Source of the DNA: Candidatus Agathobaculum pullicola
Lineage (GTDB): Bacteria; Bacillota; Clostridia; Oscillospirales; Butyricicoccaceae
Length of the DNA: 58,198 nt
NCBI GenBank assembly: GCA_019115085.1
Contig: DXEF01000008.1
Location: 1 to 58,198, forward strand
Reading direction: 5' to 3'
Of the stretch, positions 9,237-54,120 are shown one piece after another. The stretch's first letter is position 1; the number at the start of each line of letters is the position of its first letter. Position numbers and translations under genes: made by a program. The notes beneath the pieces are model-generated. The model was not told the origin of the DNA, ran no database searches, and saw only the letters and a program-made list of their open reading frames with translations.

Positions 9237-10967
9237 TTATTCATCGTCCTGCAAGGCGTCAAAGCCCTCTGCACCCGTGCGCACCTTGATGACGTTTTCC
9301 ACGTCGTAAACAAAGATTTTACCGTCGCCGATGTGACCGGTGTACAGCACCTTCTTGACCGTCTCCACTACGGTTTCCACTGGTATCTTGGACACAACGA
9401 CTTCCATCTTGATTTTCGGCAGCAGCGTCACATCCACTTCTGCGCCGCGGTAATACTCCGCTGCACCTTTCTGCACGCCGCAGCCAATAACATTGGTTAC
9501 CGTCATGCCGGAAACACCGATTGCGCCCAGCGCTTCCTTGAGTACCTCAAACTTGGACTGCTTGGTAACAATAACAATTTTGGTCAACTTGTGATCGCTG
9601 CCCTCGGTAGTCACCTTGGTGACGGGAACCGCCTTCTCTACGGCAACCGGAATGGTGTCCAGCATAGATGCTGCCTTCTCTGCTGCTTTGGTGCCCAGCA
9701 CATTCGGCACCACCGGCATAAAGTCCGCATACGCCGAGGACAGGCCGTGCTCAGGCTTATCAAGGCCCATGATTTCTTCTGCCTCAGAAACACGCAGACC
9801 GATGGTATGCTTGATAACCTGGAATACAATCGTCATCGTGATGGCAACCCACGCAATGACCGCTACCATACCGAGCGCCTGAATAGCAAGCGCATGCACA
9901 CCGCCGCCGTAGAACAGGCCGACCGGCGCAATCTCCGTGCTGCCGTAAGCATAGTAACCAAAGAGGCCAACCATTAACGTACCGGTCGCGCCGCACAAGC
10001 CATGTACGCCAACCGCACCAACCGGATCATCTACCTTGAGCTTCTGGTCGACAAATTCGATACCAAATACCACAACAAAGCCTGCGATAATGCCGATAAC
10101 CGCTGCGCCAAAGGGTGTAACTGTGTCACAGCCCGCCGTAATGGCAACCAGACCGGCCAGAGAACCGTTCAGTGTCATGGAAACATCCGGCTTTTTGTAG
10201 CGAATCCATGTAATGCACATCACCGTCACGGTCGCAACCGCAGCCGCCATGTTGGTGGTCACAAAGACACGGGCTGCAACCTCTGCGCCCTCACCGGACA
10301 GAGCAACCGTCGAGCCGCCGTTAAAGCCGAACCAGCAGAACCACAGGATGAATACGCCCAGCGCGCCCAGCGTCAGCGAATGACCGGGAATCGCACGTGC
10401 CTTGCCGTCCTTGGTGTACTTACCGATGCGTGGCCCGAGGATGGACGCGCCAATGAGTGCCGCGACGCCGCCGACCATGTGCACCGCCGTGGAACCGGCA
10501 AAGTCATGGAAGCCCAGCTCAGCCAGCCAGCCGCCGCCCCAGATCCAGTGACCGGAAATCGGATAAACGACAGCCGAAATGATCATGGAGTAAATGCAGT
10601 AAGCTGAAAACTTGGTACGCTCCGCCATCGAACCGGAGACAATCGTCGCAGCCGTCGCACAGAACACGGTCTGGAAAATGAGCGTGGTCCAGTTGTATCC
10701 TTCGCCTACAACACCGTCGGTCAGGAAATCAAAGCCGCCAAAAAAACCGTTCATAGAACCGAACATGATGCCAAAGCCCACCAGCCAGAAAATCGGCGTG
10801 CCGAGACTGAAGTCCATCAGGTTTTTCATGATGATGTTACCCGCATTTTTCGCGCGGGTAAAGCCGGTTTCCACCATTCCAAAGCCTGCCTGCATGAAAA
10901 ATACGAGTGCTGCCGCTATCAGTGTCCAGCCGACATCCATCGAGGTCGCAAGTGCCGTGAAATCCAT
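9237..10967 (-). CDS. ammonium transporter Amt fused to a C-terminal PII (GlnK) domain
   Basis: A 576-residue fusion. Residues 1 to about 415 are an Amt/Rh channel with 11 expected membrane helices and the usual conserved parts: DFAGSTAVHMVGG (pore His region), GHSLTLGALGVFILWFCWFGFN and GAVGVHGLCGATGTL (second pore His). After a linker of about 45 residues the last ~120 residues form a complete PII domain: KLTKIVIVTKQSKFEVLKEAL, a T-loop with QKGAAEYYRGAE (the Tyr that is uridylylated in some PII proteins is kept), KIKMEVVV and TGHIGDGKIFVYDVENVIKVRTG. Separate GlnK normally plugs the Amt pore when 2-oxoglutarate is low; covalent tethering makes the gate permanent. ATG 10967 has AGGGGG upstream. 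Its leader carries a terminator plus ANTAR-type hexaloop. Confidence 0.95.
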   Translation of the reverse strand: MDFTALATSMDVGWTLIAAALVFFMQAGFGMVETGFTRAKNAGNIIMKNLMDFSLGTPIFWLVGFGIMFGSMNGFFGGFDFLTDGVVGEGYNWTTLIFQTVFCATAATIVSGSMAERTKFSAYCIYSMIISAVVYPISGHWIWGGGWLAELGFHDFAGSTAVHMVGGVAALIGASILGPRIGKYTKDGKARAIPGHSLTLGALGVFILWFCWFGFNGGSTVALSGEGAEVAARVFVTTNMAAAVATVTVMCITWIRYKKPDVSMTLNGSLAGLVAITAGCDTVTPFGAAVIGIIAGFVVVFGIEFVDQKLKVDDPVGAVGVHGLCGATGTLMVGLFGYYAYGSTEIAPVGLFYGGGVHALAIQALGMVAVIAWVAITMTIVFQVIKHTIGLRVSEAEEIMGLDKPEHGLSSAYADFMPVVPNVLGTKAAEKAASMLDTIPVAVEKAVPVTKVTTEGSDHKLTKIVIVTKQSKFEVLKEALGAIGVSGMTVTNVIGCGVQKGAAEYYRGAEVDVTLLPKIKMEVVVSKIPVETVVETVKKVLYTGHIGDGKIFVYDVENVIKVRTGAEGFDALQDDE

Positions 10968-10980
10968 TGATAAAACCCCC

Positions 10981-11047
10981 TAAAAATTAAAATGGCGTGT
11001 ATCCCCTGCCGCCCTTTGGGCGAACAGGGAATACACGCCATTGTGTA
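10981..11047 (-). promoter_or_regulatory. amt leader: terminator overlapping a hexaloop hairpin (ANTAR-type attenuator)
   Basis: On the minus strand TACAC-AATGGC-GTGTA (11032-11047) forms a 5-bp stem with a six-base loop having A at position 1 and G at 4. The loop and 3' arm are also the 5' arm of a long terminator (10991-11042: AATGGCGTGTAT... paired with ATACACGCCATT) followed by TTTTAATTTTT, 14 bp before the amt start. The two folds are mutually exclusive. No convincing promoter was found; TTGCAT-like and TATATC-like boxes lie at about 11052-11075. Confidence 0.8.
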
Positions 11048-11107
11048 CGAAGATAGATATATGCAAGTATGCAAGAACTTATTTCCGCGCGCTGCGCAGA
11101 TTTGACG

Positions 11108-11275
11108 GGAAAGAACGGGTTATCGTTCTTTCCATACAAAACCACGACACGCGCGTGGGTTTGTATACTTCTGTCTGTGAAAAGTTTCGTTCATCGGAAC
11201 TTTTCGCAGCCTTATGTCCTGTCCGAGCCGTTGGGCCCGGCAGAACATCCTCGTTTGCAGCTGTTGCCGCAAACG
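11108..11275 (-). ncRNA. array of five consecutive hairpins between glnN and amt
   Basis: Five independent stem-loops follow the glnN stop: 11252-11275 (CGTTTGC/GCAAACG), 11215-11247 (TGTTCTGCCGGGCC with GGCTCGGACAGGACA), 11179-11205 (GAAAAGTT/AACTTTTC), 11136-11164 (ACAAACCCACG/CGTGGTTTTGT) and 11108-11133 (perfect 10-bp GGAAAGAACG/CGTTCTTTCC with a six-base loop). None has a U-run, no ORF covers them, and the sequences differ from each other. It may be a structured 3' UTR or small RNA. Whether it is a separate transcript cannot be seen. Confidence 0.5.
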
Positions 11276-11280
11276 AAGTC

Positions 11281-13368
11281 TTAAACGTAAAACAGAATGT
11301 CCGAATAGGTCGGGAACGGCCAGTACTTCTTGCCCACCAGCATTTCCAGCTGATCAGCGGGTGCGCGAACCGCATCCATTGCGGGCAGAATGGTGTTATG
11401 ATAGTAATTGGCCAACGTCTCTGCGTCCGCATCCGGCGCTTGCTCTACCGCCGCATCGAGTGCAAGGCCCTTGGTGTACAGTTCCTCGGTCAGAGCAGAC
11501 ACGCGGCCCAGCAGATCGGCTTCCATGCCGCCCGCAACACCGGCTTCTTCCTTGTTTTTGACCGTCTTGGCCAGATCGCTCTGGTATGCCACACAAGCTG
11601 GCAAAATCTCCTCGCGCACCATGTCGCTCATGGTCAGCGCCTCGATGTGCAGGGTCTTGTAGTATTCCTCGAGCAACGCTTCCTCACGAGATTCCATCTC
11701 CACGCGGCTGTACACACCGTGACGGATAAATAGCTCAACATTAGCCTCATCCGTATAGTGCGGCAGCGCGTCTACTGTGGACTTGAGGTTGTGCAGGCCA
11801 CGCGCCTCTGCCTCAGCCACCCAAGCATCGTCATAACCGTTACCATTAAAGATGATGCGCTTATGCGCCTTGATTTCACGCTTGATGAGCGCAATCAGTG
11901 CGGTCTGGAAGTCATCCGCCTTCTCCAGTTCATCTGCGAACAAGCGAAGCTCCTCGGCTACCGCCGTGTTAATCATGATATTCGGGCAAGCGATGTTAAT
12001 CGCAGACCCCAGCATACGGAACTCAAACTTGTTGCCGGTGAAGGCAAAGGGAGAGGTACGGTTGCGGTCGGTCGTGTCCTTCGGGATATCCGGCAGAACG
12101 GAAACACCCAGATCCATCTTGGTCTTTGCCATGTCGGTGTAATCCTCACCGGACTCAATCGCATCGAGAATCGCCTGCAATTCGTCGCCAATGAACATGG
12201 AAACGATAGCCGGAGGCGCTTCGTTTGCACCCAGACGATGGTCATTGCCCGCAGAGGCAACCGAAATACGAAGCAGATCCTGATATTCGTCCACTGCCTT
12301 GATAACCGCGGTCAGGAACAGCAGGAACTGGGCATTCTCGCTGGGGGTCTTGCCCGGCTCGAGCAGATTTTCCCCATCATCGGTGGAAATCGACCAGTTG
12401 TTGTGCTTACCCGAACCGTTGACGCCGTCAAACGGCTTTTCGTGCATCAAGCAGATGAAGCCGTGCTTCTGTGCCACACGCTTCATGACCTCCATGGTCA
12501 GCTGGTTGTGGTCGGTTGCGATATTCGTAGTGGTGAATACCGGTGCCATCTCGTGCTGAGCGGGCGCGACCTCGTTGTGCTTGGTCTTGGCAAAGATGCC
12601 GAGCTTCCACAGTTCCTCATCCAACTCCTGCATGAACGCGGCAACACGCGGGCGGATGGAGCCGAAGTAGTGGTCCTCCATCTCCTGGCCCTTGGGCGGC
12701 TTTGCGCCGAACAGGGTGCGGCCGGTAAAAATCAGATCCTTGCGCTGTGCATAGTCCTTTTTGTCAATGAGGAAATACTCTTGCTCCGGGCCGACTGTCG
12801 TGGCCACACGGCGAACATTCTTGCCAAACAGTTTGAGCACACGGCATGCCTGCGTGCTGATGGCTTCCATCGAGCGCAGCAGCGGCGTCTTTTTGTCGAG
12901 GATTTCGCCTGTGTAAGAGCAGAACGCAGTCGGAATGTAGAGCGAACCGTCCTTAACGAACGCATAGCTGGTCGGATCCCACGCAGTGTAGCCGCGGGCC
13001 TCGAAGGTCGCACGCAGGCCGCCGGACGGGAACGAAGAGGCATCCGGCTCGCCCTTAATCAGTTCCTTGCCGGAAAACTCCATCATTACGCTGCCGTCAT
13101 CCGTGGGGGAAATAAAGGAATCGTGCTTTTCCGCCGTCACGCCGGTCATGGGCTGGAACCAGTGGGTGTAGTGCGTTGCGCCCTTGGACACCGCCCAGTC
13201 CTTCATCGCCGTTGCCACTACCGCAGCAACGTCGGCATCAATAGCCGTACCTTCCCGCATGGTTTTCTTCAGCTTTCTGTAAACGTCCTTGGGCAGACGT
13301 TCCTTCATCACGGTCTCGTTAAAGACCATGCTGCCGAACAACTCCGGAACATTTTTGGATGTGTTCAT
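11281..13368 (-). CDS. glnN: glutamine synthetase type III
   Basis: A 695-residue GSIII, the length typical for this dodecameric class (about 700 aa). It makes glutamine from glutamate, ammonia and ATP. Family features: N-terminal [44 protein letters not shown], the [17 protein letters not shown] block, the metal-site stretch [25 protein letters not shown], and [13 protein letters not shown] with the active-site His. All look intact, so this is the main functional glutamine synthetase in the window. ATG 13368 has AAAGGAG upstream. It is transcribed divergently from the glutamate synthase operon, from a perfect consensus promoter, through a leader attenuator. amt lies downstream in the same direction. 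Confidence 0.97.
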
Positions 13369-13418
13369 GAATGGTTCGCTCCTTTGTATGTGAATTTGTT
13401 ACCCAACGATATGGAATA

Positions 13419-13465
13419 TAACAAAACAGGCGCTGCGGGTCGTGTTCCCACAGCGCCTTTGCTGT
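13419..13465 (-). promoter_or_regulatory. glnN leader: terminator overlapping a hexaloop hairpin (ANTAR-type attenuator)
   Basis: On the minus strand ACAGC-AAAGGC-GCTGT (13450-13465) forms a 5-bp stem with loop A1...G4. The end of that hairpin is also the 5' arm of a terminator stem, AGGCGCTG(T)GGG paired with CCC(G)CAGCGCCT (13428-13458), followed by TGTTTTGTT. The structure begins within about 5-10 nt of the predicted transcript start. Because the glt operon diverges, it cannot be the terminator of another gene. Confidence 0.8.
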
Positions 13466-13476
13466 TTACACTTTGC

Positions 13477-13505
13477 ATTATAGCGGGCAGTCCCTCCTTT
13501 GTCAA
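13477..13505 (-). promoter_or_regulatory. perfect consensus sigma-A promoter of glnN
   Basis: On the minus strand TTGACA (13500-13505), 17-bp spacer, TATAAT (13477-13482). Confidence 0.92.
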
Positions 13506-13628
13506 GGTCTCCGAACCTTCTTTTTCGCTGAAACAGACGATTTGATGCAACCTTCCGAAAAACCGTAAAAAGCGCGGCGGTCATTCTATGCAAATTGTAA
13601 AAAATCATGATTTCCACCCTTTTCCCGC

Positions 13629-13658
13629 TTGACGCTGTCCCCTATTTTGCTATACAAT
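13629..13658 (+). promoter_or_regulatory. promoter of the glutamate synthase operon
   Basis: TTGACG (13629-13634) with TATACA at 16 bp or TACAAT at 18 bp (13651-13658). Transcription should start near 13664, directly at the attenuator hairpin. Confidence 0.75.
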
Positions 13659-13664
13659 AGGAAC

Positions 13665-13736
13665 GGACAAAGGCGTCCACGATAACCGGAGATCAAAAAG
13701 GCGGTCTCCGGTTATCGTGGACGCCTTTTTTATATC
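13665..13736 (+). promoter_or_regulatory. glt leader: terminator overlapping a hexaloop hairpin (ANTAR-type attenuator)
   Basis: GGAC-AAAGGC-GTCC (13665-13678) is a short hairpin with a six-base A1...G4 loop at the predicted RNA 5' end. Its loop and 3' arm start a very long terminator stem (13669-13730; AAAGGCGTCC... paired with GGACGCCTTT, about 24 perfect bp) ending in TTTTTT. The terminator loop again contains AAAGGC. The first gene starts 110 bp downstream. Confidence 0.82.
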
Positions 13737-13844: not shown

Positions 13845-14942
13845 ATGTTGCAAAAAGAAGGCAAAATCCGTATTCCCGCCGGCTGTGCGATCTCCGGCAT
13901 TTTTCACAAAGACGGCACACGGGAGAACGGCACGCGCATCATCGACTCCATCCGCACCATGCACGACCGTTCCAATGGTCTGGGCGGCGGCTTCGCCGGC
14001 TACGGCATTTATCCCGAGTATGCAGACTTCTATGCGTTTCATGTATTCTATGATACGCAGAATGCCAAGGATGAGTGTGAAAAAGAGCTGGAGCGACACT
14101 TCGACATCGTCAATCTTTCCAAGATTCCAACGCGCCGCCATCCCCGCATCACCGACGAGTCGATGATTTGGCGCTATTTCGTCACTCCCCTGCACACAAA
14201 ACTGGCGGCCAGCCAGCTCGACGAGCGGGAATTCGTCGCCCGCTTCGTCATCCACATCAACCACACGCTGGACGGCGCTTACATCTTCTCTTCCGGCAAG
14301 AACATGGGTGTATTCAAAGCATCCGGCTTCCCGGAGGACGTTGGCGAATACTATCGCTTGGAGGAATACGAGGCCTACTCGTGGACCTGCCACGGCCGCT
14401 ATCCGACCAACACCCCCGGCTGGTGGGGCGGCGCGCATCCGTTTGCGCTGCTGGACACCACGGTGGTACATAACGGAGAGATTTCCTCTTACGATGCACA
14501 CCGTCGCTTCATTGAAATGTTCGGATACTCGTGCGACCTGCTGACCGACACCGAGGTCATCACCTACATCGTCGATTATCTCGGTCGCAAGCTTGGCCTG
14601 ACGCTCGAGGAGATCAGCCGCGTCATCGCCGCGCCGTTCTGGTCTACCATTGAAAAGCAGGAGCCGGCTGAACGCGAGCGACTGACCTATTTGCGCAACG
14701 CATTCGCCTCTCTGATGGTCACCGGCCCGTTTTCCATTCTGGTCGGCTACGAAGGCGGCCTGATGGCGCTCAACGACCGCCTCAAGCTGCGCAGCATGGT
14801 GGTCGGTGAAAAGGACGAAACCGTTTATATTGCCTCGGAAGAATGTGCCATCCGCGTGATTGCGCCCGAGCTTGACCGGGTCTGGGCGCCGCGCGGCGGC
14901 GAGGCTGTCATTGTGAGCTTAAACAACGGAGGGAAGCAGTAA
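13845..14942 (+). CDS. glutamate synthase, class II glutamine amidotransferase subunit
   Basis: A 365-residue Ntn-type glutaminase corresponding to the N-terminal domain of GltB, here a separate protein as in archaeal-type glutamate synthases. It releases ammonia from glutamine for the FMN subunit encoded next. Cys14 in PAGCAISGIF is the likely nucleophile, so a short propeptide must be removed. Further family parts are MHDRSNGLGGGFAGYGIYP, FSSGKNMGVFKASGFPEDV, CHGRYPTNTPGWWGGAHPF and VVHNGEISSY with the oxyanion-hole region. ATG 13845 follows AAAGGAGGAAGCACC. The stop overlaps the next start by one base (TAATG), so the subunits are coupled. Confidence 0.93.
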   Translation: MLQKEGKIRIPAGCAISGIFHKDGTRENGTRIIDSIRTMHDRSNGLGGGFAGYGIYPEYADFYAFHVFYDTQNAKDECEKELERHFDIVNLSKIPTRRHPRITDESMIWRYFVTPLHTKLAASQLDEREFVARFVIHINHTLDGAYIFSSGKNMGVFKASGFPEDVGEYYRLEEYEAYSWTCHGRYPTNTPGWWGGAHPFALLDTTVVHNGEISSYDAHRRFIEMFGYSCDLLTDTEVITYIVDYLGRKLGLTLEEISRVIAAPFWSTIEKQEPAERERLTYLRNAFASLMVTGPFSILVGYEGGLMALNDRLKLRSMVVGEKDETVYIASEECAIRVIAPELDRVWAPRGGEAVIVSLNNGGKQ

Positions 14943-16447
14943 TGGCTATTGATTTTCTGTATCCGCAGTACGAGGTCGTGCGCAATTACGACCGCTGCAT
15001 CGCCTGCCGTGCCTGCGAGCGGCAGTGCGCCAACGAAGTACATTTTTACGATCCCGAATTTGAAAAAATGATGGTGGATGAGAGCAAATGCGTCAACTGC
15101 CATCGGTGCGTCTCGCTCTGCCCGACGCGCGCACTAAAAATTGTCAAGACCGACCACACCTTCAAGGAAAATGCCAACTGGACGGGCAAGGCCATTTCCG
15201 AGGTTTACCGTCAGGCGGGTTCGGGCGGCGTACTGCTGTCCTCCATGGGCAACCCCGAGCCGTACCCCATTTACTGGGATAAAATCCTTATCAACGCCTC
15301 ACAGGTTACCAATCCCTCCATTGACCCGTTGCGCGAGCCAATGGAAACAAAAACCTTCCTTGGCAAAAAGCCGGGCAAGATTGCGCGCGACGAAAACGGT
15401 CGCCTGATTCCCAATATGTCCCCGCAGCTTGAGCTGAATGTGCCGATTATGTTCTCCGCGATGAGCTATGGCTCGATTTCCTACAACGCGCATGAATCGC
15501 TTGCTCGCGCAGCCTGCGCGCTTGGCACCTATTACAACACCGGCGAGGGCGGCCTGCATCAGGACTTCTATCAGTACGGCCCGCACACCATCGTGCAGGT
15601 TGCATCCGGCCGCTTCGGCGTACACAAGGACTATCTGGAAGCAGGCGCGGCCATCGAGATTAAGATGGGTCAGGGCGCAAAGCCCGGTATTGGCGGTCAC
15701 CTGCCCGGCCACAAGGTTGGCCCGGACATCTCCAAGACCCGTATGATTCCGGAGGGCACGGACGCCATCTCCCCCGCCCCGCACCACGATATCTACTCGA
15801 TTGAAGATCTGCGGCAGCTCGTTTTCTCGCTTAAGGAAGCAACCGAATACAAAAAGCCGGTTATGGTCAAGATTGCGGCCGTACATAATGTAGCCGCCAT
15901 CGCTTCGGGCGTTGCCCGTTCAGGCGCGGACGTTATCTGCATCGACGGCTATCGCGGCGGCACCGGCGCGGCACCGACCCGCATCCGTGACAACGTCGGT
16001 ATCCCGATCGAGCTGGCACTTGCCGCGGTTGACCAGCGTCTGCGCGACGAGGGCATCCGCGATCAGGTTTCCGTGGTCGTAGGCGGCTCGATCCGCAACT
16101 CGGCCGACCTTTTGAAGGCCATCGCGCTCGGTGCAGACGCCTGCTACATCGCCACCTCCGCCCTGCTTGCGCTCGGCTGCCATTTGTGCCGCTCCTGTCA
16201 GGAAGGCAAGTGCAACTGGGGCATTGCGACTCAGCGCCCCGAGCTGGTCAAACGTCTCAATCCGGATATCGGCTCTCAGCGTCTCATCAATCTGGTCACC
16301 GCATGGGATCATGAACTCAAAGAAATGATGGGCGGCATTGGCATCAACTCGATTGAAGCGCTGCGCGGCAACCGACTGATGCTGCGCGGCCTGGGCCTGA
16401 CCCAGAAGGAGCTTGACATCCTCGGTATCAAGCACGCAGGCGAATAA
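14942..16447 (+). CDS. glutamate synthase, FMN-binding catalytic subunit with two N-terminal [4Fe-4S] sites
   Basis: A 501-residue protein that condenses ammonia with 2-oxoglutarate and reduces the product to glutamate on FMN. Residues 15-62 hold two ferredoxin motifs (Cys19/22/25/29 and Cys50/53/56/60), a feature of archaeal-type enzymes absent from standard GltB. The FMN barrel covers about 130-470: PIMFSAMSYGSISYNAHESLA, YNTGEGGLHQDF, GAKPGIGGHLPGHKV, CIDGYRGGTGAAPT and VVGGSIRNSADLLKAIALGAD. A Cys cluster CHLCRSCQEGKC near 413-424 matches the 3Fe-4S site. Second gene of the operon, coupled to the amidotransferase and followed after 12 bp by a ferredoxin subunit. Confidence 0.95.
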   Translation: MAIDFLYPQYEVVRNYDRCIACRACERQCANEVHFYDPEFEKMMVDESKCVNCHRCVSLCPTRALKIVKTDHTFKENANWTGKAISEVYRQAGSGGVLLSSMGNPEPYPIYWDKILINASQVTNPSIDPLREPMETKTFLGKKPGKIARDENGRLIPNMSPQLELNVPIMFSAMSYGSISYNAHESLARAACALGTYYNTGEGGLHQDFYQYGPHTIVQVASGRFGVHKDYLEAGAAIEIKMGQGAKPGIGGHLPGHKVGPDISKTRMIPEGTDAISPAPHHDIYSIEDLRQLVFSLKEATEYKKPVMVKIAAVHNVAAIASGVARSGADVICIDGYRGGTGAAPTRIRDNVGIPIELALAAVDQRLRDEGIRDQVSVVVGGSIRNSADLLKAIALGADACYIATSALLALGCHLCRSCQEGKCNWGIATQRPELVKRLNPDIGSQRLINLVTAWDHELKEMMGGIGINSIEALRGNRLMLRGLGLTQKELDILGIKHAGE

Positions 16448-16459
16448 GGAGGAAAGACG

Positions 16460-16888
16460 ATGAAACGGGTTTATGTTAACGAAAAATGGTGCCTCGGCTG
16501 CCATTTGTGTGAGTATTATTGCGCCTTTGCCAACTCCGGCAAGTCCTCGATGGTCAAGGCGCTCAAAGACCATAAAATTGCGCCGCGTATCCGCATTGAA
16601 GAACGCAATAACATTTCCTTTGCGGTCAACTGCCGCCACTGCACCGACCCGCTGTGTGTCAAGGGCTGCATTTCGGGCGCGTTGACCATCGTGGACGGCG
16701 CGGTGCATATCGACTCGGACAAGTGCGTCGGCTGCTACACCTGCATCCTGTCCTGTCCGTACGGCGCGCTGTCTACCTCCAACGAAGGCGCCATTCAGAA
16801 GTGCGAGCTATGCGCCAAGAACGAGTTTGGCCAGCCTCTATGCGTACAGGGCTGCCCGAACAAGGCTATTGTGTACGAGGAGAGGTGA
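16460..16888 (+). CDS. polyferredoxin subunit (four [4Fe-4S] clusters)
   Basis: A 142-residue electron-transfer protein with 16 Cys in four sets: Cys11/14/17/21, 58/61/66/70, 89/92/95/99 and 115/118/128/132, the pattern of HycB/DMSO-reductase-type electron subunits. It presumably passes electrons between the flavoprotein encoded next and the FMN subunit of glutamate synthase. ATG 16460 follows AAGGAGGAAAGACG. It sits third in the operon, 12 bp after the FMN subunit and 5 bp before the oxidoreductase. No export signal, so it acts in the cytoplasm. Confidence 0.92.
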   Translation: MKRVYVNEKWCLGCHLCEYYCAFANSGKSSMVKALKDHKIAPRIRIEERNNISFAVNCRHCTDPLCVKGCISGALTIVDGAVHIDSDKCVGCYTCILSCPYGALSTSNEGAIQKCELCAKNEFGQPLCVQGCPNKAIVYEER

Positions 16889-16893
16889 AACGC

Positions 16894-18132
16894 ATGAATT
16901 ACGTGATTATTGGCAACGGCACCGCCGCAGTTGGCACGATTGAGGGTATCCGCGCCGTCGATCCCACCGGCCCCATCACGGTCATCTCGGATGAGATTTA
17001 TCCGGTGTACGGCCGTCCGCTTATCTCCTATTTGCTGCTCGGCAAAACGACCGAGGACAAAATGCTGCACTACCGTCCGGCTGATTTTTACGAGAAAAAC
17101 GGTGTTAAAACCATGCTCGGCTGCACCGTCACAAAAATCGACCCTGCGGCAAAGGCCGTTATGCTCGAGGGCGGAGAAACCGTGCCGTATGACAAGCTGT
17201 GCATCTGCACCGGCTCACGTCCGTTCGTCCCGCCCATGGAAGGCTTGGATACTGTGCAGAACAAAACCAGCTTTATGACGCTGGACGATGCCAAGCGGCT
17301 GGATGCGATGCTGGGCGACGCAAACGACAAGCGCGTACTCATCATCGGTGCGGGCCTTATCGGCCTGAAATGTGCCGAAGGCATCTACCAGCGTGTCAAG
17401 GAATTGACCGTCATCGACCTTGCGCCCCGTATCCTCCCCAACGTGCTGACCGAGGTGCCCGCCTCTATCATCCAAAAGCACATCGAAACCAAGGGTGTGC
17501 ACTTCATTCTTGGGGACAGCGTTGCCCGCTTTGACGGCGACACCGCCACCCTGCAAAGCGGCGGCACGATTAATTTTGATGTGCTGGTCATTGCGGTCGG
17601 CGTGCGTCCGAACACCGAACTTGCCGCTGAGGCAGGCTGTGAAGTAAACCGTGGCATCCTGATCGACGACCGCTCCGCCACCACCGTGCCGGACATTTAC
17701 GCGGCTGGCGACTGCACGGTATCGCATGACATCACCGCGGACACCGACCGTATTCTCGCTATCCTGCCCAATGCCTATATGCAGGGCGAAACCGCAGGCC
17801 GAAACATGGCGGGCGGCAAAACGTCCTTTGACAAGGCTGTCCCCATGAACGCATCCGGCTTTATGGGTCTGCATATGATTACTGCCGGCTCTTACGATGG
17901 CGAAACCTATCTCGAACAGGACGACGAACACTACAAGCTGCTGGTGACGCGAGACAATCATCTGGTCGGCTTCATTATGATTGGCGACGTGGACCGCGCG
18001 GGCATCTATACCTCTCTTATCCGCGAGCGCACCCCGCTGGACACCATCGACTTTGACCTCATTCGCGAAAAGCCGCAACTGATGGCATTCTCCCGCGCCG
18101 AACGCGCGAAAAAGTTAGGAGGCGCACACTGA
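16894..18132 (+). CDS. FAD-dependent NAD(P)H oxidoreductase of the glutamate synthase operon
   Basis: A 412-residue pyridine nucleotide-disulfide-type flavoprotein. The FAD Rossmann motif is IIGNGTAAVGTIEGIR (4-19), the NAD(P) Rossmann motif VLIIGAGLIGLKCAEGIY lies near 150, and the second FAD motif is IYAAGDCTV near 270. It lacks a redox Cys pair, so it resembles nitrite-reductase/rubredoxin-reductase-type enzymes and probably feeds NAD(P)H electrons to the polyferredoxin. It replaces the usual GltD small subunit. ATG 16894 (GAGAGG upstream) was chosen because the longer frame overlaps the ferredoxin gene in another frame. TGATG couples it to the next gene. Confidence 0.92.
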   Translation: MNYVIIGNGTAAVGTIEGIRAVDPTGPITVISDEIYPVYGRPLISYLLLGKTTEDKMLHYRPADFYEKNGVKTMLGCTVTKIDPAAKAVMLEGGETVPYDKLCICTGSRPFVPPMEGLDTVQNKTSFMTLDDAKRLDAMLGDANDKRVLIIGAGLIGLKCAEGIYQRVKELTVIDLAPRILPNVLTEVPASIIQKHIETKGVHFILGDSVARFDGDTATLQSGGTINFDVLVIAVGVRPNTELAAEAGCEVNRGILIDDRSATTVPDIYAAGDCTVSHDITADTDRILAILPNAYMQGETAGRNMAGGKTSFDKAVPMNASGFMGLHMITAGSYDGETYLEQDDEHYKLLVTRDNHLVGFIMIGDVDRAGIYTSLIRERTPLDTIDFDLIREKPQLMAFSRAERAKKLGGAH

Positions 18133-18860
18133 TGACTACTGTACAGGCAAATCTTACCTATTATCAGCAACTTAACGAGCAGATTCGCGCGATTGACGAT
18201 ACTGACATCACAGTGGAAAACGTAATCGGACAGCGATACATCGGCTGCGGCTCGGCAGACCGTACCATCACCATCCACGGCACGCCCGGCAACGGTCTGG
18301 GCCAGTATTTGAGCGGCTCGACCATTGAGGTGTTCGGCAACGCACAGGAAGCAGTCGGCGACACCATGAATCAGGGCGACATCATTATCCATGGCAACGT
18401 GGGCGACGCCTGCGGCTACGGCATGCGCGGCGGCCGCATCTTCATCCAAGGCGACTGCGGCTACCGCGGCGGTATTCATATGAAGGCCTATGAGCAGCAT
18501 TTCCCCGTCATCGTCATCGGCGGCAAAGCTGGCTCGTTCCTCGGCGAATATCAGGCTGGCGGCCTGATTCTGGTGCTGGGCCTCGGGCAGGACGGCGCCT
18601 ATCCCGCAGGAAATTTCTGCGGCACCGGTATGCACGGCGGCAAAATTGTGTTAAGATGTGATAAAGCCCCTGTCGGTCTGCCGCGTCAGGTGCTGGTCAG
18701 CCCGGCATCGCAGGAGGATCTCGACGGCATCGCGCCGTATATTGAGGACTATTGCCGCCATTTCGGCGGCGATGCCGCTGCCCTGCTCGCTCAGCAATAT
18801 TATGTGCTGTCCCCCAATCCTGAGGCCGGTTACCACCAGCTTTATACCTATGAATCCTGA
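18132..18860 (+). CDS. glutamate synthase, GXGXG (C-terminal GltB) subunit
   Basis: A 242-residue protein equivalent to the C-terminal right-handed beta-helix of GltB, which shapes the ammonia tunnel and domain contacts. The repeats show the family pattern: GCGSADRTITIHGTPGNGLG, IEVFGNAQEAVGDTMNQGDI, IIHGNVGDACGYGMRGGRIF, GDCGYRGGIHMK and VIGGKAGSFLGEYQAGG. The start overlaps the oxidoreductase stop. Together with the amidotransferase, FMN and electron-transfer subunits it makes a complete, split, archaeal-type glutamate synthase. Confidence 0.93.
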   Translation: MTTVQANLTYYQQLNEQIRAIDDTDITVENVIGQRYIGCGSADRTITIHGTPGNGLGQYLSGSTIEVFGNAQEAVGDTMNQGDIIIHGNVGDACGYGMRGGRIFIQGDCGYRGGIHMKAYEQHFPVIVIGGKAGSFLGEYQAGGLILVLGLGQDGAYPAGNFCGTGMHGGKIVLRCDKAPVGLPRQVLVSPASQEDLDGIAPYIEDYCRHFGGDAAALLAQQYYVLSPNPEAGYHQLYTYES

Positions 18861-18911: not shown

Positions 18912-20231
18912 ATGGATACCACCATGTACGAAGTCATACAATTTATAGAGGAGAATGACGTTAAATTCATCCGTCTGGCCTTTTGCGACATCTTCGGCAA
19001 CCAGAAAAACATTGCCATCATGCCCACCGAGCTGACCCGTGCGTTTGAACACGGCGTCCACTTCAATGCGTCCTCGCTGCGCGGCTTCCTCAACGTGGAT
19101 GCCTCCGACCTGCTGCTGTTCCCCGACCCGGCAACGCTGTCCGTGCTGCCGTGGCGGCCCGCACAGGGACGCGTGGTGCGCTTCTACTGCGATATCCGGT
19201 ATCCGGACGGTACCCCCTTCGAGGGCGACGGCCGCCGCCTGCTTCGTGAGGCGAGCCGCCGCGCCCGTCAGTCAGGTTTTTCCATCACGATGGGTACGGC
19301 AAGCGAATTTTACCTGTTTGAACTGGATGAAAACGGGCATCCCACCATCATACCGCACGACCACGGCGAATATTTCGACGTGGCCCCGCTGGATAAAGCG
19401 GAAAATGTGCGCCGCCAAATCTGCCTGACGCTCGAGGAAATGAATATCCAGCCGGAATCTTCGCATCATGAGCAAGGCCCCGGACAGCACGAAATTGACT
19501 TCCGCTATGCGGAAGCGCTTGAGGCAGCGGACAATTTTGTCACCTTCAAATGGGTGGTCAAATCCATGGCGGCGTCGAGCGGCCTGTACGCCTCGTTCCT
19601 GCCAAAGCCCTTGCCCAGCATCCCCGGCAGCGGCCTGCACCTGTCGATTTCCATCATGAAGGGCGGAGAAAATCTCTTTCATCCGGACTTTGACCAAAAC
19701 CAAGCCGGCCGCAGCTTTGTCGCGGGCATTTTGCAGCACGCGGCGGAAATGACCATATTCGGCAACCCGCTGACCAATTCATTCCAGCGGCTGGGCGAGT
19801 TTGAAGCGCCCAAGTATATCACATGGTCACATCAGAACCGCTCGCCGCTGATTGCCATTCCGCTGGCAAACGGCAAACTGGCCAATCGCATGAAGGTGCG
19901 CTCGTTCGACGGCTGCATCAATCCCTATATCGTTTTTGCCCTGCTTATCCATGCTGGGCTGGACGGCATCGAACAGCAACTCCCCCTTGCTCCCGCGTGC
20001 AACGAAAACCTGTTCACCGCCTCGGACGCGGTACGCGCCCAGTATCAGGCGCTGCCCGGTTCGCTGTGTGAAGCCATCCGCTGCGCACAGGACAGCCCCT
20101 TTATCGCCCGTCACCTGCCGACAAAGACACGCGAAGCGTTTTTCGCCGCCAAACAGGTTGAACATGACCGCATCGCGCTGGCGGACGACCGCTTTTCCGC
20201 TGAGCGCGCGCTGTATTTCGAGCGCTACTGA
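18912..20231 (+). CDS. GlnA-like protein (type I glutamine synthetase fold) with lost catalytic residues
   Basis: A 439-residue homologue of GSI-alpha that aligns over its whole length with bacterial GlnA, but key residues differ. The ammonium-site Asp50 (FDGSS) is Asn52 (FNASS); metal-n2 ligand Glu129 (PEPEF) is Ala130 (TASEF); metal-n2 ligand Glu357 (RIEVR) is Lys328 (RMKVR). Glu132, Glu187, Glu194, His243, Arg326 and Arg330 are kept, as are GPGQHEIDF and the EAP flap. A working second metal site is therefore unlikely, and I infer a pseudoenzyme, perhaps a ligand sensor; a ligase with another chemistry is possible. It lies 51 bp after the GXGXG gene (GAGAGGAG upstream of ATG 18912) and 39 bp before the ANTAR gene. 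Confidence 0.9.
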   Translation: MDTTMYEVIQFIEENDVKFIRLAFCDIFGNQKNIAIMPTELTRAFEHGVHFNASSLRGFLNVDASDLLLFPDPATLSVLPWRPAQGRVVRFYCDIRYPDGTPFEGDGRRLLREASRRARQSGFSITMGTASEFYLFELDENGHPTIIPHDHGEYFDVAPLDKAENVRRQICLTLEEMNIQPESSHHEQGPGQHEIDFRYAEALEAADNFVTFKWVVKSMAASSGLYASFLPKPLPSIPGSGLHLSISIMKGGENLFHPDFDQNQAGRSFVAGILQHAAEMTIFGNPLTNSFQRLGEFEAPKYITWSHQNRSPLIAIPLANGKLANRMKVRSFDGCINPYIVFALLIHAGLDGIEQQLPLAPACNENLFTASDAVRAQYQALPGSLCEAIRCAQDSPFIARHLPTKTREAFFAAKQVEHDRIALADDRFSAERALYFERY

Positions 20232-20270: not shown

Positions 20271-20846
20271 TTGGAACGCATCATGATCGTTTCCGCCACG
20301 CAAAAATCCCATGCCATGCTGACACAATTTCTTACTTCCTGCGGTGTGCAGGCAAAAACCGTTGCGGTTTCTTCCGGTTCGGAGGCCCGTCGCGCACTGG
20401 TAGACGGAGACTTTGACCTGATTCTGGTCAATACGCCTCTGCCGGATGAATTCGGCCACGAACTGGCACAAACCGCTGTGTGCGACACGCTTGCCGGCGT
20501 TATCCTGCTGGCGAAAGCAGAGGTGGCCGACAGCGTTGCCGAAAAAGTAGAGGACGACGGCGTTTTTGTCGTACCCAAACCGCTCTCGCGCACACTGTTT
20601 TTGCAGGCGCTGCGCATGACGCGCGCCGCACGTTCCCGCCTGACCGGTCTGCGCAAGGAAAACCGCCGTTTGCAGCAGCGCATCGAGGATATCCGTCTGG
20701 TTGACCGCGCTAAATGTCTGCTGATTGAATGTTGCTCGATGAGTGAGCCTGAGGCGCATGCCTATATCGAACAGCAGGCCATGAATCAGCGGCGTACCAA
20801 ACGACAAATTGCGGAGCATATTATTTCCGGCGGCATGCCGGAATGA
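20271..20846 (+). CDS. ANTAR-domain antiterminator with a degenerate receiver
   Basis: A 191-residue regulator. The N-terminal receiver-like domain (1-115) lacks the acidic pocket (IMIVSA instead of VDD), has Asn54 at the phospho-Asp site (LILVNTPLPD) and Ala for the conserved Thr; Lys103 (PKP) remains. A coiled coil (about 117-141) leads to an ANTAR RNA-binding helix bundle (142-187: AKCLLIECCSMSEPEAHAYI, QQAMNQRRTKRQIAEHII). ANTAR proteins bind hexaloop RNA hairpins and block terminators; NitR of Clostridium saccharobutylicum is, as I recall, a nitrogen-related example. Loss of phosphorylation sites resembles AmiR, which is controlled by a partner protein. Start TTG 20271 has AAAGGAGG 10 bp upstream. 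Last gene of the glt operon. Confidence 0.92.
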   Translation: MERIMIVSATQKSHAMLTQFLTSCGVQAKTVAVSSGSEARRALVDGDFDLILVNTPLPDEFGHELAQTAVCDTLAGVILLAKAEVADSVAEKVEDDGVFVVPKPLSRTLFLQALRMTRAARSRLTGLRKENRRLQQRIEDIRLVDRAKCLLIECCSMSEPEAHAYIEQQAMNQRRTKRQIAEHIISGGMPE

Positions 20847-20944: not shown

Positions 20945-21003
20945 TATACTAAATGGTATATGAGCCATGGCTTGCTGATTGGCCTGCTTATATACCATTT
21001 TTT
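20945..21003 (+). promoter_or_regulatory. -10 box followed at once by a terminator-like hairpin, dapF leader
   Basis: TATACT (20945-20950) without a good -35 is followed directly by AAATGGTATA (20951-20960), pairing with TATACCATTT (20991-21000) plus T-run. A smaller hairpin, ATATAC-TAAATG-GTATAT, overlaps its 5' arm. It may end the ANTAR operon, attenuate dapF, or both. The six-base loop does not have the A1/G4 pattern. Confidence 0.55.
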
Positions 21004-21026
21004 GTTTTATCAAGGAGGGAGCCCGC

Positions 21027-21872
21027 TTGAAGCTGTCCTTCACCAAGATGCACGGCTGCGGCAACAACTACATTTATTTCAACTGTTTTGACCAGACGGT
21101 ACCCGATCCTGCGTCGCTCTCCGTCCGGCTGAGTGAGCCGCACTTCGGCATCGGCGGCGACGGCATCATCCTGATTTCCCCTTCGGACAAGGCAGACGCG
21201 CAGATGCGCATTTTCAACGCCGACGGGTCAGAGGGCAAAATGTGCGGCAACGGTATTCGCTGCGTCGGCAAATATCTGTACGACAACGGCATGACCGACG
21301 GACGCACCACCATTACGGTCGACACGCTTTCGGGCGTAAAAACACTTGAGCTGACCGTCAAAGACGGTAAAATGGTTTCCGCCCGCGTGGACATGGGCGC
21401 GGCCATCTTGAAGCCGGCCGACATCCCGGTTAACCTGGAGGGTGACACGGTCATCGGCGCACCGCTGGTCGTCGATGAAAAAGTGTATCATGTCACCTGC
21501 GTCTCCATGGGTAACCCGCACTGTGTGATTTTCCTCGATGAGGATATCGATGGGCTGGATCTTGAGCGGATTGGCCCCAAATTTGAACACCACACGCTGT
21601 TCCCGGAGCGCGTCAACACAGAGTTTGTCAATGTCCTGCCGGACGGCACACTCAAGATGCGCGTGTGGGAGCGCGGCTCGGGCGAGACCTGGGCCTGCGG
21701 CACGGGCGCCTGCGCAGTGGGTGTGGCCGCAGTGCTGACCGGACGCGCACAGAAAGGCGAGGATATCACCGTACATTTGCGTGGCGGTGACCTGACCGTG
21801 CGCTACACCGACCAGACCGTGTTCATGACAGGCGCGGCAACGACCGTATTTAAGGGGGAAATCGAGTTATGA
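21027..21872 (+). CDS. dapF: diaminopimelate epimerase
   Basis: A 281-residue PLP-independent epimerase converting LL- to meso-diaminopimelate for lysine and peptidoglycan. Both catalytic Cys are visible: [11 protein letters not shown] (near residue 73) and [11 protein letters not shown] (near 220). The N-terminus [17 protein letters not shown] fits the family only if the start is TTG 21027, which has AAGGAGGG 8 bp upstream; the frame extends to 20979 but without a ribosome site. It overlaps pyrG by ATGA. With dapL two genes on, it completes the aminotransferase (DapL) branch of lysine synthesis. Confidence 0.96.
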
Positions 21873-23485
21873 CAAAATATATCTTTGTGACCGGCGGCGT
21901 TGTCTCCGGTCTGGGCAAGGGCATCACGGCCGCGTCGCTCGGCCGTCTGCTTAAGAGCCGCGGCCTGAAGATTGCCGCGCAAAAGCTGGATCCGTATATC
22001 AATGTTGACCCCGGCACCATGAGCCCGTTCCAGCACGGCGAGGTATATGTTACGGATGACGGCGCGGAAACCGACCTCGACCTTGGCCACTATGAGCGCT
22101 TCATCGACGAGGACCTTAATAAGTTCTCCAACCTGACCACCGGCAAGGTATACTGGAACGTTCTGAACAAAGAGCGCGCGGGCGAGTATCTGGGCGAAAC
22201 CGTGCAGGTAATCCCGCATATCACCAACGAAATTAAATCGTTTATTTACTCGGTTGGTAAAAAGACCTCGGCAGACGTGGTCATCACTGAGATCGGCGGC
22301 ACGACCGGCGATATCGAGTCCCAGCCGTTCCTCGAAGCCATCCGCCAGGTGGCGACCGAGGTTGGTCGCCGCAATTGCCTGTTCATTCACGTCACGCTTG
22401 TGCCGTTTATCTCCGGCTCGAACGAACCGAAAAGCAAGCCCACCCAGCACTCGGTCAAGGAACTGCGTGGCCTGGGTATTTCCCCGGACATCATCGTCGC
22501 GCGCGTCGATCAGCCGCTGGACGACGACATCAAGCGCAAAATTTCTCTATTCTGCACCGTGCAGGAGGACTGTGTTATCGAAAACCGCACGTTGCCCGTG
22601 CTATATCAGGCGCCCATGATGCTTGAGGAGAGCCACCTGTCCGATATCGTCTGCCGTGAACTTGCCATCGGCGCGCCCAAGGGCGACATGAGCGAATGGG
22701 TTGAAATGCTCGAGCGCATCGCCTCCCGTAAGGATCATGTGAAGATTGCGTTAGTCGGCAAATATGTCAAGCTGCATGACGCATACCTCTCGGTTGCGGA
22801 GGCGCTGCAGCACGGCGGCTATGAGACCGGTTGCTTTGTTGACATCGACTGGGTCGATTCCGAAGAGATCAACGATTCGACCGCGGACAAGCTGCTCGGC
22901 GAGGTCGACGGCATCATCCTGCCCGGCGGCTTCGGTCCGCGCGGCATTGAGGGCATGATCTGCGCGGCGAACTATGCACGCACGCAGGGTATCCCCTACT
23001 TCGGCATCTGCCTCGGCATGCAGATTGCGGTCATGAGCTACGCGCGCAATGTGCTCGGCTTTGAGGACGCAAACTCGTCCGAGTTCGATCAGGATTCCAC
23101 CCATCCGGTCATCGACCTGATGGAAAGCCAGCAGGGCGTTTCCAAAAAAGGGGGCACGATGCGTTTGGGCGCATATCCGTGCAAAATCCGTCCGGATACC
23201 ATCATGGCTTCGGCCTACGGTGCGGAGATGATCTCCGAGCGCCACCGTCATCGCTATGAGTTCAACAACAGCTTCCGTGAGCAGATCGAAAGCCACGGCA
23301 TGCAGATCACCGGCACCTCCCCCACGGGCGAGCTGGTGGAAACCGTCGAAATCCCGAACCATCCGTTCTACATCGGCGTGCAGTTCCACCCTGAGTTTAA
23401 ATCCCGTCCCAATCGCGCGCATCCGCTGTTTAAGGCGTTTGTCGCAGCATCGCTGAAAAGGAGCAAAGAACATGCAGATCAATAA
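21869..23485 (+). CDS. pyrG: CTP synthase
   Basis: A 538-residue enzyme making CTP from UTP, ATP and glutamine. The synthetase domain (1-270) opens [20 protein letters not shown] and has [21 protein letters not shown]. The class I amidotransferase domain (about 290-538) has GGFGPRG, catalytic Cys in YFGICLGMQ and His/Glu in GVQFHPEF. Length matches the family. It overlaps dapF by 4 bp and dapL by 14 bp, so the three are one operon, an arrangement mixing nucleotide and lysine synthesis. Confidence 0.98.
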
Positions 23486-24650
23486 GCACTATGACGATCT
23501 GGAGCAGAGCTATCTGTTTTCCACGATTGCACGTAAGGTAAACGAATATTCCGCCGCGCACCCGGAAGCGGATATCATCCGTCTGGGCATTGGCGACGTC
23601 ACCCGTCCGCTCGTGCCTGCTGTTATCGAAGCACTGCACGCGGCGGTCGAGGATCAGGCCAAGCAGGAAACCTTCCACGGCTACGGCGATGAGCAGGGCT
23701 ACGGCTTTCTGCACGAAGCCCTCGTAGGCTACTACAAGACCCACAGCGTTGCGCTCGACACCAACGAAATCTTCATTTCGGACGGCGCCAAGAGCGACCT
23801 CGGCAACATCCTTGATATCTTCGGCACGGACAATACCGTCCTGATTCCTGATCCGGTTTATCCGGTATACGTGGACACCAACGTTATGGCGGGCCGTAAG
23901 GTTGTATTCATGAATGCAACTGAGGAAAACGGTTTCCTGCCGCTGCCGGACGCTTCTGTTCCGGCGGATATTATCTATCTCTGCTCCCCCAATAACCCGA
24001 CCGGCGCAGCATACGACCGCACGGGCCTCAAGGCTTGGGTGGATTACGCCAACGCACAGAAAGCGGTCATCCTGTATGACGCGGCGTATGAATGCTTCAT
24101 TGAGGACGAGAATCTGCCCCGCTCCATTTATGAAATCGAGGGTGCAAAGACCTGCGCCATCGAGTTCTGCTCGTTCTCCAAGATGGCCGGTTTCACCGGC
24201 ACACGCTGCGGCTGGACGGTTGTCCCGCAGGCACTGATGGACGGCAAGCTGAATAAGATGTGGCTGCGCCGCCAGACCACCAAGTTCAACGGCGTTCCCT
24301 ACATCGTACAGAAGGGTGCGGCAGCTTGCTTCACCGCGGAAGGCATGAAGCAGATCAAGGAAACCCTCGGCTACTACAAGCAGAATGCCAAGGTGCTCTC
24401 TGAGACGCTTGATTCGCTCGGTATCTGGTACACCGGTGGTAAGTCCAGCCCGTATCTGTGGCTCAAGTGTCCGAACGGTATGGGTTCGTGGGAGTTCTTC
24501 GACTATCTGCTCGAAAACGCCAACGTGGTTGGTACACCGGGCGCAGGCTTCGGTAAAAACGGTGACGGCTTCTTCCGTCTGACCGCCTTCGGCGACCAGA
24601 AGCGCACACTCGAAGCGGCGGAGCGCTTGAAAAAGCTACTTTCCAAGTAA
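23472..24650 (+). CDS. dapL: LL-diaminopimelate aminotransferase
   Basis: A 392-residue PLP aminotransferase (fold I) that makes LL-diaminopimelate from tetrahydrodipicolinate in one step. Features include [14 protein letters not shown] near 34-47, the [13 protein letters not shown] substrate segment, [11 protein letters not shown], and the PLP Lys in [15 protein letters not shown] (near 236). The start lies inside pyrG with AAAGGAG upstream. Followed by a terminator at 24655-24681. Presence of DapL with DapF explains the absence of succinylase or acetylase genes here. Confidence 0.96.
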
Positions 24651-53845: not shown

Positions 53846-54120
53846 CAAAAAAAGCTTCGTCCCTTAATCAAAATTAAGAGACGAAGCATAACTCCGCGGT
53901 ACCACTCTTGTTGCCGCATAAAAGACGGCCACTCAGCGCGTATCAAACAATACGCCGCCCCTGTAACGGTGGGCATCCGTTCCCTCCTACCGGCCGGACG
54001 GCTTTCAGCGGACCGCTCCCGGGCGAGTTTCACCGTTTCCTGACGCTGCCTTGCACCAACCGACAGCTCTCTGTGGACAGGGATGCGATTACTTTACCCG
54101 TTCATCACCTTTTGCAATAT
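53846..54120 (-). promoter_or_regulatory. T-box riboswitch (leucine, specifier CUC) upstream of leuA
   Basis: On the minus strand the T-box core TGGTACCGCGG (53894-53904) base-pairs the uncharged tRNA end. The leader starts with a stem I region containing AGTAATCG-type and GGGAGCGG-type elements. The likely specifier codon is CTC at 54025-54027 (in AAACTCGCC), encoding leucine. The terminator GCTTCGTC... / GACGAAGC (53854-53887) with seven Ts competes with the antiterminator. Starvation for leucine should turn on leuACDB. Confidence 0.95.

Follow-up and report, generated by a model that had tools for sequence, protein, structure and literature searches.

The glt, glnN and amt genes lie within a 58,198-nucleotide (nt) contig of Candidatus Agathobaculum pullicola (DXEF01000008.1, assembly GCA_019115085.1; hereafter the window, meaning this whole stretch of DNA), and their leaders each contain one short RNA hairpin with a six-base loop that overlaps an intrinsic terminator. 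Judged from sequence, we propose with a probability of roughly 0.8 that all three act as transcription attenuators and are opened, each at a single 5′ hexaloop, by the NitR-type ANTAR protein whose gene ends the glt operon. Nitrogen-assimilation genes, here and in many relatives, start with one hairpin that competes with a terminator and is probably held open by a neighbouring RNA-binding protein. The anatomy of the leaders, the covariation of both folds, the promoter adjacency at glt and glnN, the absence of a second upstream hairpin (P1) and the co-occurrence of leader and protein are seen in the sequences; we infer the binding of NitR, the direction of control and the signal.

The hairpins of glt (GGAC-AAAGGC-GTCC; 13665–13678, forward strand), glnN (ACAGC-AAAGGC-GCTGT; 13450–13465, reverse strand) and amt (TACAC-AATGGC-GTGTA; 11032–11047, reverse strand, in the glnN-amt intergenic region) were all found where the original prediction had placed them, each with A1 and G4 in a hexanucleotide loop on a short stem. 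Folded alone they reach −5.5, −5.4 and −3.4 kcal/mol, respectively, and 0, 8 and 6 of 200 shuffled sequences were as stable. The predicted overlap with a terminator using the loop and 3′ arm likewise holds for all three. The glt terminator (13669–13728, forward strand; −50.4 kcal/mol, z −11.8) has its 5′ arm starting at the hexaloop and excludes the hairpin, the glnN terminator (13428–13458, reverse strand) takes its arm from the third loop base, and the amt terminator (10991–11042, reverse strand; −43 kcal/mol, z −9.75) is absent from a simpler terminator scan. The folds of the whole leaders are these terminators, with −50.4 (glt), −26.7 (glnN) and −43 kcal/mol (amt) and 0 of 200 shuffles as stable.

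Promoter-like sites precede the glt hairpin (TTGACG-18-TACAAT; 13629–13658, forward strand), ending 6 nt before the stem, and the glnN hairpin (TTGACA-17-TATAAT, 12/12; 13477–13505, reverse strand), ending 11 nt before it; the scan gave 3 such sites in the region compared with 1.6 expected in shuffles. The same scan returned no promoter-like site before the amt hairpin, which sits in a 313-nt gap downstream of glnN on the strand shared by glnN and amt. Based on the missing promoter match and this placement, the amt element is therefore read as probably an internal attenuator of a glnN-amt transcript, the alternative being an unrecognised promoter. The earlier placement of the hexaloops at the very start of the RNA is thus supported for glt and glnN, with their promoter-like sites directly before the hairpins, and not for amt. 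The three transcription units proposed at the outset may number only two, an internal attenuator then preceding amt. The glnN-amt intergenic region also contains, upstream of the amt hexaloop, four inverted repeats with arms of 11–32 nt (11086–11276), the core of one of which scored terminator-like on both strands.

The window was scanned on both strands for hairpins with 4 or more stem pairs, an ANNGNN loop and an overlapping terminator, which had to begin in the hairpin loop or 3′ arm. Exactly three sites emerged, those before glt, glnN and amt, compared with none in 12 control strands (both strands of 6 sequences simulated with a first-order Markov model). No gathering-score match was obtained from Rfam at the three leaders; its only matches in the window were a T-box leader elsewhere (RF00230, 121.9 bits; 53874–54114, reverse strand) and one tRNA.

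In the mechanism that we propose, downstream RNA would pair with the loop and 3′ arm as long as NitR is not active, forming the terminator and stopping transcription after about 50–75 nt (glt, glnN). Active NitR, expected under nitrogen limitation by analogy with NitR of Clostridium saccharobutylicum, would bind one hexaloop through G4 and the C-G closing pair, hold the hairpin and block the terminator, so that glt-glnA-nitR, glnN and amt would be transcribed. The nitR gene would lie inside an operon under its own control, creating a self-reinforcing loop if it is cotranscribed with glt. No upstream recruitment hairpin P1 would take part, unlike in the EutV, NasR and AmiR systems.

To place the leaders in their lineage we examined 80 named glt loci and 30 glnN loci, the latter including that of the window. 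A strict detector recovered the glt leader in 46 of the 80 loci, and seven were cut at a contig end. Among the other 27, a relaxed rule recovered the hexaloop in 14, inspection by eye added L007, whose loop has G1, and L046 and L059, which have two G-U pairs, and 10 were without it. Relatives that keep the terminator and have lost the hexaloop, named beforehand as the case that would speak against the idea, are thus not the rule, the hexaloop being present in 63 of 73 uncut glt leaders. Over the unique leaders of both sets, it was found in 81/92 for glt, 70/80 for glnN and 44/53 for amt, using a scoring that favoured A1/A2, required G4 and admitted a few doubtful sites, mostly of amt; 81, 70 and 42 of these hexaloop leaders, respectively, have a terminator partner. 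A promoter score of 9 or more (matches out of 12, less a penalty for spacing) within 25 nt before the stem was reached by 73/81 glt, 61/70 glnN and 4/44 amt leaders, with the promoter at 5–13 nt before the stem in 62 glt and 60 glnN cases. When no loop criterion was applied, hairpins with a 6-nt loop and a stem of at least 5 pairs located 2–20 nt past a strong promoter carried A1 and G4 in 39/46 glt and 51/55 glnN cases (90/101 pooled). Loop position 3 is more variable than A1, A2 and G4, both in a set chosen for those three bases and in the hairpins found without the loop criterion. The commonest inner stems are GAAC/GTTC, GGAC/GTCC and GAGC/GTTC for glt, CAGC/GCTG and AGGC/GTCT for glnN, and ACAC/GTGT for amt.

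The covariation of the leaders across relatives revealed compensatory changes in both alternative folds. Within an alignment of 69 hairpins (62 distinct), 93.5% of cells pair compared with at most 53% in slid registers, and both-sided changes occur in 93 cells against 29.8 in shuffles. For 68 leaders, 95.0% of cells are paired in the hexaloop fold and 94.9% in the mutually exclusive terminator fold, with 102 both-sided changes against 30.3 in shuffles and 134 against 31.5, respectively. Both alignments took only sites passing the hairpin and terminator criteria, biasing the paired percentages upward, and the unbroken pairs 2–4 arise by construction from the required stem of at least 4. In every selected row the loop is closed by a C-G pair. 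The weight is therefore carried by the compensatory-change counts, which pool the three gene classes, and not by the pairing percentages.

The hairpin also distinguishes these terminators from others at the 80 glt loci. A 6-nt-loop hairpin stands at the base of 76/95 nitrogen-leader terminators compared with 21/170 other terminators. An 8-nt loop scores as well (48/95 versus 10/170), which we read as the identical hairpins with the closing pair opened. Some relatives show elaborations of the arrangement: tandem single-hexaloop attenuators precede one gene in L181 (2492–2674), in L097 (3644–3847) and upstream of glt in L076, and in the latter two every tandem copy has its own promoter-like site. 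The glt leaders of three loci of one genus with a NitR-type ANTAR (L186, L187, L188) differ in having an AG-type hexaloop farther from the promoter, and two of them show, by eye, a long GCAGGC...GCCTGC-type terminator.

One hexaloop per leader, without a tandem pair, had been noted as unusual in the window and proved to be lineage-wide. Two tandem hairpins P1 and P2 with a short linker, which define the dual-hairpin type, are not what these leaders contain. Within 40 nt upstream of the hairpin, a second AG hexaloop on a stem of 4 or more pairs was found for 2/80 glt, 0/70 glnN and 1/44 amt leaders, compared with 1.3, 1.2 and 0.5 in shuffles. Over leaders from genomes with a NitR-type gene, P1 was present in 5/272, which is chance level (3/180, 2/82 and 0/10 by set; 3.1 and 1.3 in shuffles for the first two). 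For this count the first set was cleared of T4-type loci and of loops lacking A1, the order set of its 6 leader-only genomes, and the phylum sets of the doubtful L273, L275, L276 and L288 and of 8 places without a returned locus. In genomes with other ANTARs, P1 was found in 5 of 22 leaders against 0.4 expected, with clear tandem pairs for example in G263 and G421, demonstrating that the test is able to detect it. A hidden P1 was therefore rejected for NitR-type genomes, as no leader class rises above the shuffle expectation in the 40 nt upstream. Furthermore, since the glt and glnN promoters end 5–13 nt before most hairpins, P1 cannot be in that RNA.

The ANTAR gene, encoding a degenerate receiver followed by an ANTAR domain and taken as the last gene of the glt operon, lies at 20271–20846 (forward strand); no other was found in the genome, which is 82% complete. 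Its product matches PF03861 with 58.0 bits against a curated cut-off of 27.3. The type I glutamine synthetase gene glnA (18912–20231, forward strand) stands directly upstream, an order kept in all 50 glt loci holding both genes. We call the protein NitR-type, a label borrowed by analogy, the C. saccharobutylicum NitR having been compared by its literature description only. Residues were counted in 58 NitR-type proteins from the first loci, that of the window included. The phospho-acceptor Asp54 is kept in none of them (Asn in 54, His in 2, Ser in 2). All 58 replace EutV Arg142 by Ile, Met or Leu, Glu146 by Asn, Asp, Ser or Gly (Asp in 21) and Tyr164 by His, and they carry Glu at 168; Lys149, Glu160 and Met172 are invariant. 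Among 11 distant ANTARs, 8 have Asn54, Ile/Leu142, His164 and Glu168, and those of G259, G341 and G421 retain Arg142. In EutV, Arg142-Glu146 hydrogen bonds join two ANTAR domains, and G4 is contacted by Arg142, Lys149, Glu160 and Tyr164 (Walshe 2022, PMC8934654). NitR-type proteins thus resemble EutV in Lys149, Glu160 and Met172 and depart from it at Asp54, Arg142, Glu146 and Tyr164. As the receiver lacks the usual phospho-Asp, the signal cannot be receiver phosphorylation at that residue. AmiR has a protein partner, AmiC (PMC8934654), and by analogy the signal is probably a protein partner rather than a kinase, with glutamine synthetase as the first candidate from gene order.

We analyzed the genes following the leaders at 90 of 100 listed order-level places, leaving out two of this window, two of G035 and one each of G018, G032, G151, G039, G127 and G180. 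The next open reading frame was the glt amidotransferase at 50 sites, amt at 9, glnN at 6, glnA at 2 and another gene at 23, so that glt, amt, glnN or glnA follow in 67/90. Family models identified other next genes as carA (3), asnB (3), pyrG, argG, gatC, gdhA and dapF, and further ones as encoding class-I amidotransferase-type (peptidase C26), class-III aminotransferase, Lrp/AsnC regulator, PPDK_N-domain and enolase-superfamily proteins; purA and purB follow the leaders in G036 and G041. The theme is largely one of nitrogen, like that of the dual-hairpin regulons, which include ammonium transporters, P-II and glutamate and glutamine synthases (PMC3369931). Together with the co-occurrence of leader and NitR-type ANTAR described below, the 67/90 sites support the original proposal of one nitrogen regulon under RNA-level control. 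Good leader-model matches at L173 (2114–2158, reverse), L177 (2224–2268, reverse), L176 (2268–2309, forward) and L184 (2380–2420, forward) precede genes for a class-III aminotransferase in two genomes and, in the others, for an Lrp/AsnC regulator and a PPDK_N-domain protein, and may extend the regulon.

Leader and protein were compared across 147 Oscillospirales genomes, calling leaders with model R1 at E ≤ 0.01 and the NitR type by tblastn at a cut, chosen by us, of at least 90 bits to the window protein. Both were present in 59 genomes, the leader only in 6, the protein only in 21 and neither in 61. The NitR-type gene is thus found in 59/65 leader-positive compared with 21/82 leader-negative genomes (Fisher p 3e-16, genomes treated as independent). 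The R1 search of the source genome did not list the glnN leader, although the local search had found it, and the genome-level leader counts are therefore lower bounds. Two extra R1 matches in that genome, of 20.6 and 16.7 bits, were rejected, one being a five-base-loop hairpin just 3′ of an open reading frame taken for tyrS by eye, the other lying inside a stretch that reads as coding sequence by eye. The order-sample matches L171 (G217), L172 (G180), L225 and L231 resemble chance matches or ordinary terminators.

A sample of 199 genomes from the phylum extended the comparison. Eleven further genomes, chosen by ANTAR similarity alone (match at E ≤ 1e-20), all have leader matches, the best in each at E ≤ 0.0014. 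In 33 phylum genomes without such an ANTAR match, leader matches (E ≤ 0.1) occurred in 12, and some ANTAR domain was present in 11 of these 12 compared with 7 of the 21 leader-negative genomes, one of the 7 below the curated cut-off. The match in G237 of the phylum set is doubtful.

Several observations weigh against the proposed role of NitR. The co-occurrence statistic is uncorrected for phylogeny. Two of the EutV contacts to G4, Arg142 and Tyr164, are replaced in NitR-type proteins, and EutV itself requires both hairpins in vivo. Single hexaloops also occur with other ANTARs, where 17/22 leaders are without canonical P1; they thus do not depend on the NitR residues. NitR-positive genomes without a leader-model match number 21 of 80; the amidotransferase gene was found in 7 of these 21, with an AA-type hexaloop in the fetched stretch in 3, a G1 variant in 1 and a different arrangement in 3 of one genus. 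Of the leader-only genomes, G180 and G217 have doubtful matches and G044 has another ANTAR. PF03861 found no ANTAR gene in G153, which carries three leaders, or in G036 and G041 (no match at E ≤ 0.1), where a single strong leader, of 42.0 and 39.4 bits respectively, precedes purine genes. The glnN hexaloop is kept and the glt one is not in L023, L032 and L038, which have a clearly different ANTAR type, and in L029, where the ANTAR match is only marginal; L016 and L019 have a NitR-type ANTAR and the glnN hexaloop and no glt motif. In favour of the link, in contrast, L010, L011 and L033 have neither the glt nor the glnN motif, their genomes having one ANTAR gene each, of another type, and L068 has neither motif nor ANTAR.

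One alternative is that the leader is real and regulatory and is read by a different factor, protein or small molecule, with the ANTAR link arising indirectly from lineage and neighbourhood. In G036 (L165, 3070–3137, reverse strand) and G041 (L166, 3499–3571, forward strand), a promoter, a hexaloop (TGAACAAAGGCGTTCA) and a terminator precede purA-purF and purB-purA, respectively, and the divergence of the G4-contact residues from those of EutV points the same way. We consider this explanation unlikely. The co-occurrence of leader and NitR-type gene argues against it, as does the ANTAR enrichment in leader-positive genomes without a NitR match; the loop agrees with the A1/G4 loops described for ANTAR targets, the glnN leader of G036 is without an AG hexaloop, and the missing ANTAR genes could reflect gaps in draft genomes.

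Less probable still, at odds we would call slim, is that two hexaloops are used after all, the second being a non-canonical P1 or supplied in trans, with the glt and glnN leaders bridged by a single ANTAR dimer. In its favour, the promoter-like sites of glt and glnN are divergent, and the two leaders start about 200 bp apart on opposite strands. In the EutV crystal, two hexaloops on one dimer come from different RNA molecules, although its authors judged binding in trans to be unlikely (PMC8934654). The amt hairpin, in contrast, lies 2.4 kb away, and in relatives leaders also precede carA, asnB, gdhA and argG, where divergent partners were not looked for.

The weakest alternative is a plain attenuator or bidirectional-type terminator, with AAAGGC kept for its pairing with GCCUUU and the 5′ hairpin as a by-product. 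Terminators commonly have A-tracts opposite U-tracts and GGC/GCC at the base, and the loop bases do pair in the terminator; nevertheless we regard this reading as highly improbable, given that the 5′ arm has no terminator partner and yet tracks the 3′ arm (27, 29 and 13 both-sided changes at pairs 2–4), that the 6-nt loop marks nitrogen-leader terminators in particular and that loop position 3 is less constant than A1, A2 and G4. Chance and terminator-only readings are disfavoured alike by the controls of the window scan, the covariation and the terminator comparison.

Attenuators opened by NitR through one hexaloop would have close relatives among known systems. The leaders share with the dual-hairpin antiterminators of EutV/eut, NasR/nasF and AmiR/amiE (Ramesh 2012, PMC3369931) the A1/G4 hexaloop, the overlap with an intrinsic terminator and an ANTAR gene in the genome; they differ from them in having one hairpin, at the predicted 5′ end of the RNA for glt and glnN. 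C. saccharobutylicum NitR, as described, is likewise an ANTAR protein of GS/GOGAT nitrogen genes, said to act by antitermination and to induce these genes on nitrogen limitation (PMC6316151), a likeness by description only. Hexaloops are also the targets in the actinobacterial ANTAR RNAs, which serve diverse regulons; unlike the single leaders found here, those are dual stem-loops, often over ribosome-binding sites and with few at terminators (PMC8164766). Work on the EutV-RNA complex redefined the binding unit as one hexaloop and left open how large a part single hexaloops have in ANTAR function, with P1 required in the EutV model as a recruitment hairpin for antitermination (PMC8934654). The leaders fall outside the dual-hairpin definition and are candidate members under the minimal-motif definition. 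It is already known that ANTAR proteins control nitrogen genes and that an A1/G4 hexaloop overlaps a terminator; what is new is a form with one hexaloop, lineage-wide and at the predicted 5′ end of the RNA. We recognised no account of single-hexaloop ANTAR leaders of nitrogen genes in the open-licence literature that was searched.

The genomic setting is as follows. The 58-kb window is one contig of a genome of 1.98 Mb. The glt operon comprises a class-II glutamine amidotransferase domain protein as its first gene (13845–14942), a glutamate synthase FMN-domain protein with 4Fe-4S ferredoxin-type domains (14942–16447), a pyridine nucleotide-disulphide oxidoreductase, gltD-like by position and with an uncertain true start (16654–18132), and a GXGXG-domain protein of the glutamate synthase C-terminal type (18132–18860), all on the forward strand and followed by glnA and the ANTAR gene. 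The FMN-domain protein is 91–99% identical to its counterparts in five records named Agathobaculum. The two further target genes are on the reverse strand, glnN encoding a type III glutamine synthetase (11281–13368) and amt an Amt ammonium transporter with a fused C-terminal P-II domain (9237–10967). After the ANTAR gene come dapF, pyrG and a gene for LL-diaminopimelate aminotransferase (20979–24650, forward strand), and single-hexaloop leaders precede dapF (L175) and pyrG (L182) in relatives.

On a wider scale, we give about even odds to the view that these ANTAR proteins form a subfamily independent of phosphorylation, in which the ANTAR-ANTAR interface has been rebuilt (loss of Arg142 together with a change at Glu146, Tyr164 to His, Glu168) and one 5′-terminal hexaloop suffices for antitermination. 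The subfamily would be a main regulator of nitrogen genes in many Oscillospirales as well as other Clostridia, and some of these would also place genes that use glutamine or ammonia, such as asnB, carA, gdhA, pyrG and argG, under its control. If true, P1, considered obligatory in the EutV model, would be dispensable, and NitR may instead already sit close to the polymerase when transcription begins. The leaders are natural, lineage-wide candidates for single-hexaloop antiterminators, paired with an ANTAR subfamily without the phospho-acceptor and Arg142, and they make the need for P1 directly testable. Searches for two hairpins would miss such leaders, which, together with their ANTAR protein, point to a candidate nitrogen regulator for many gut Clostridia.

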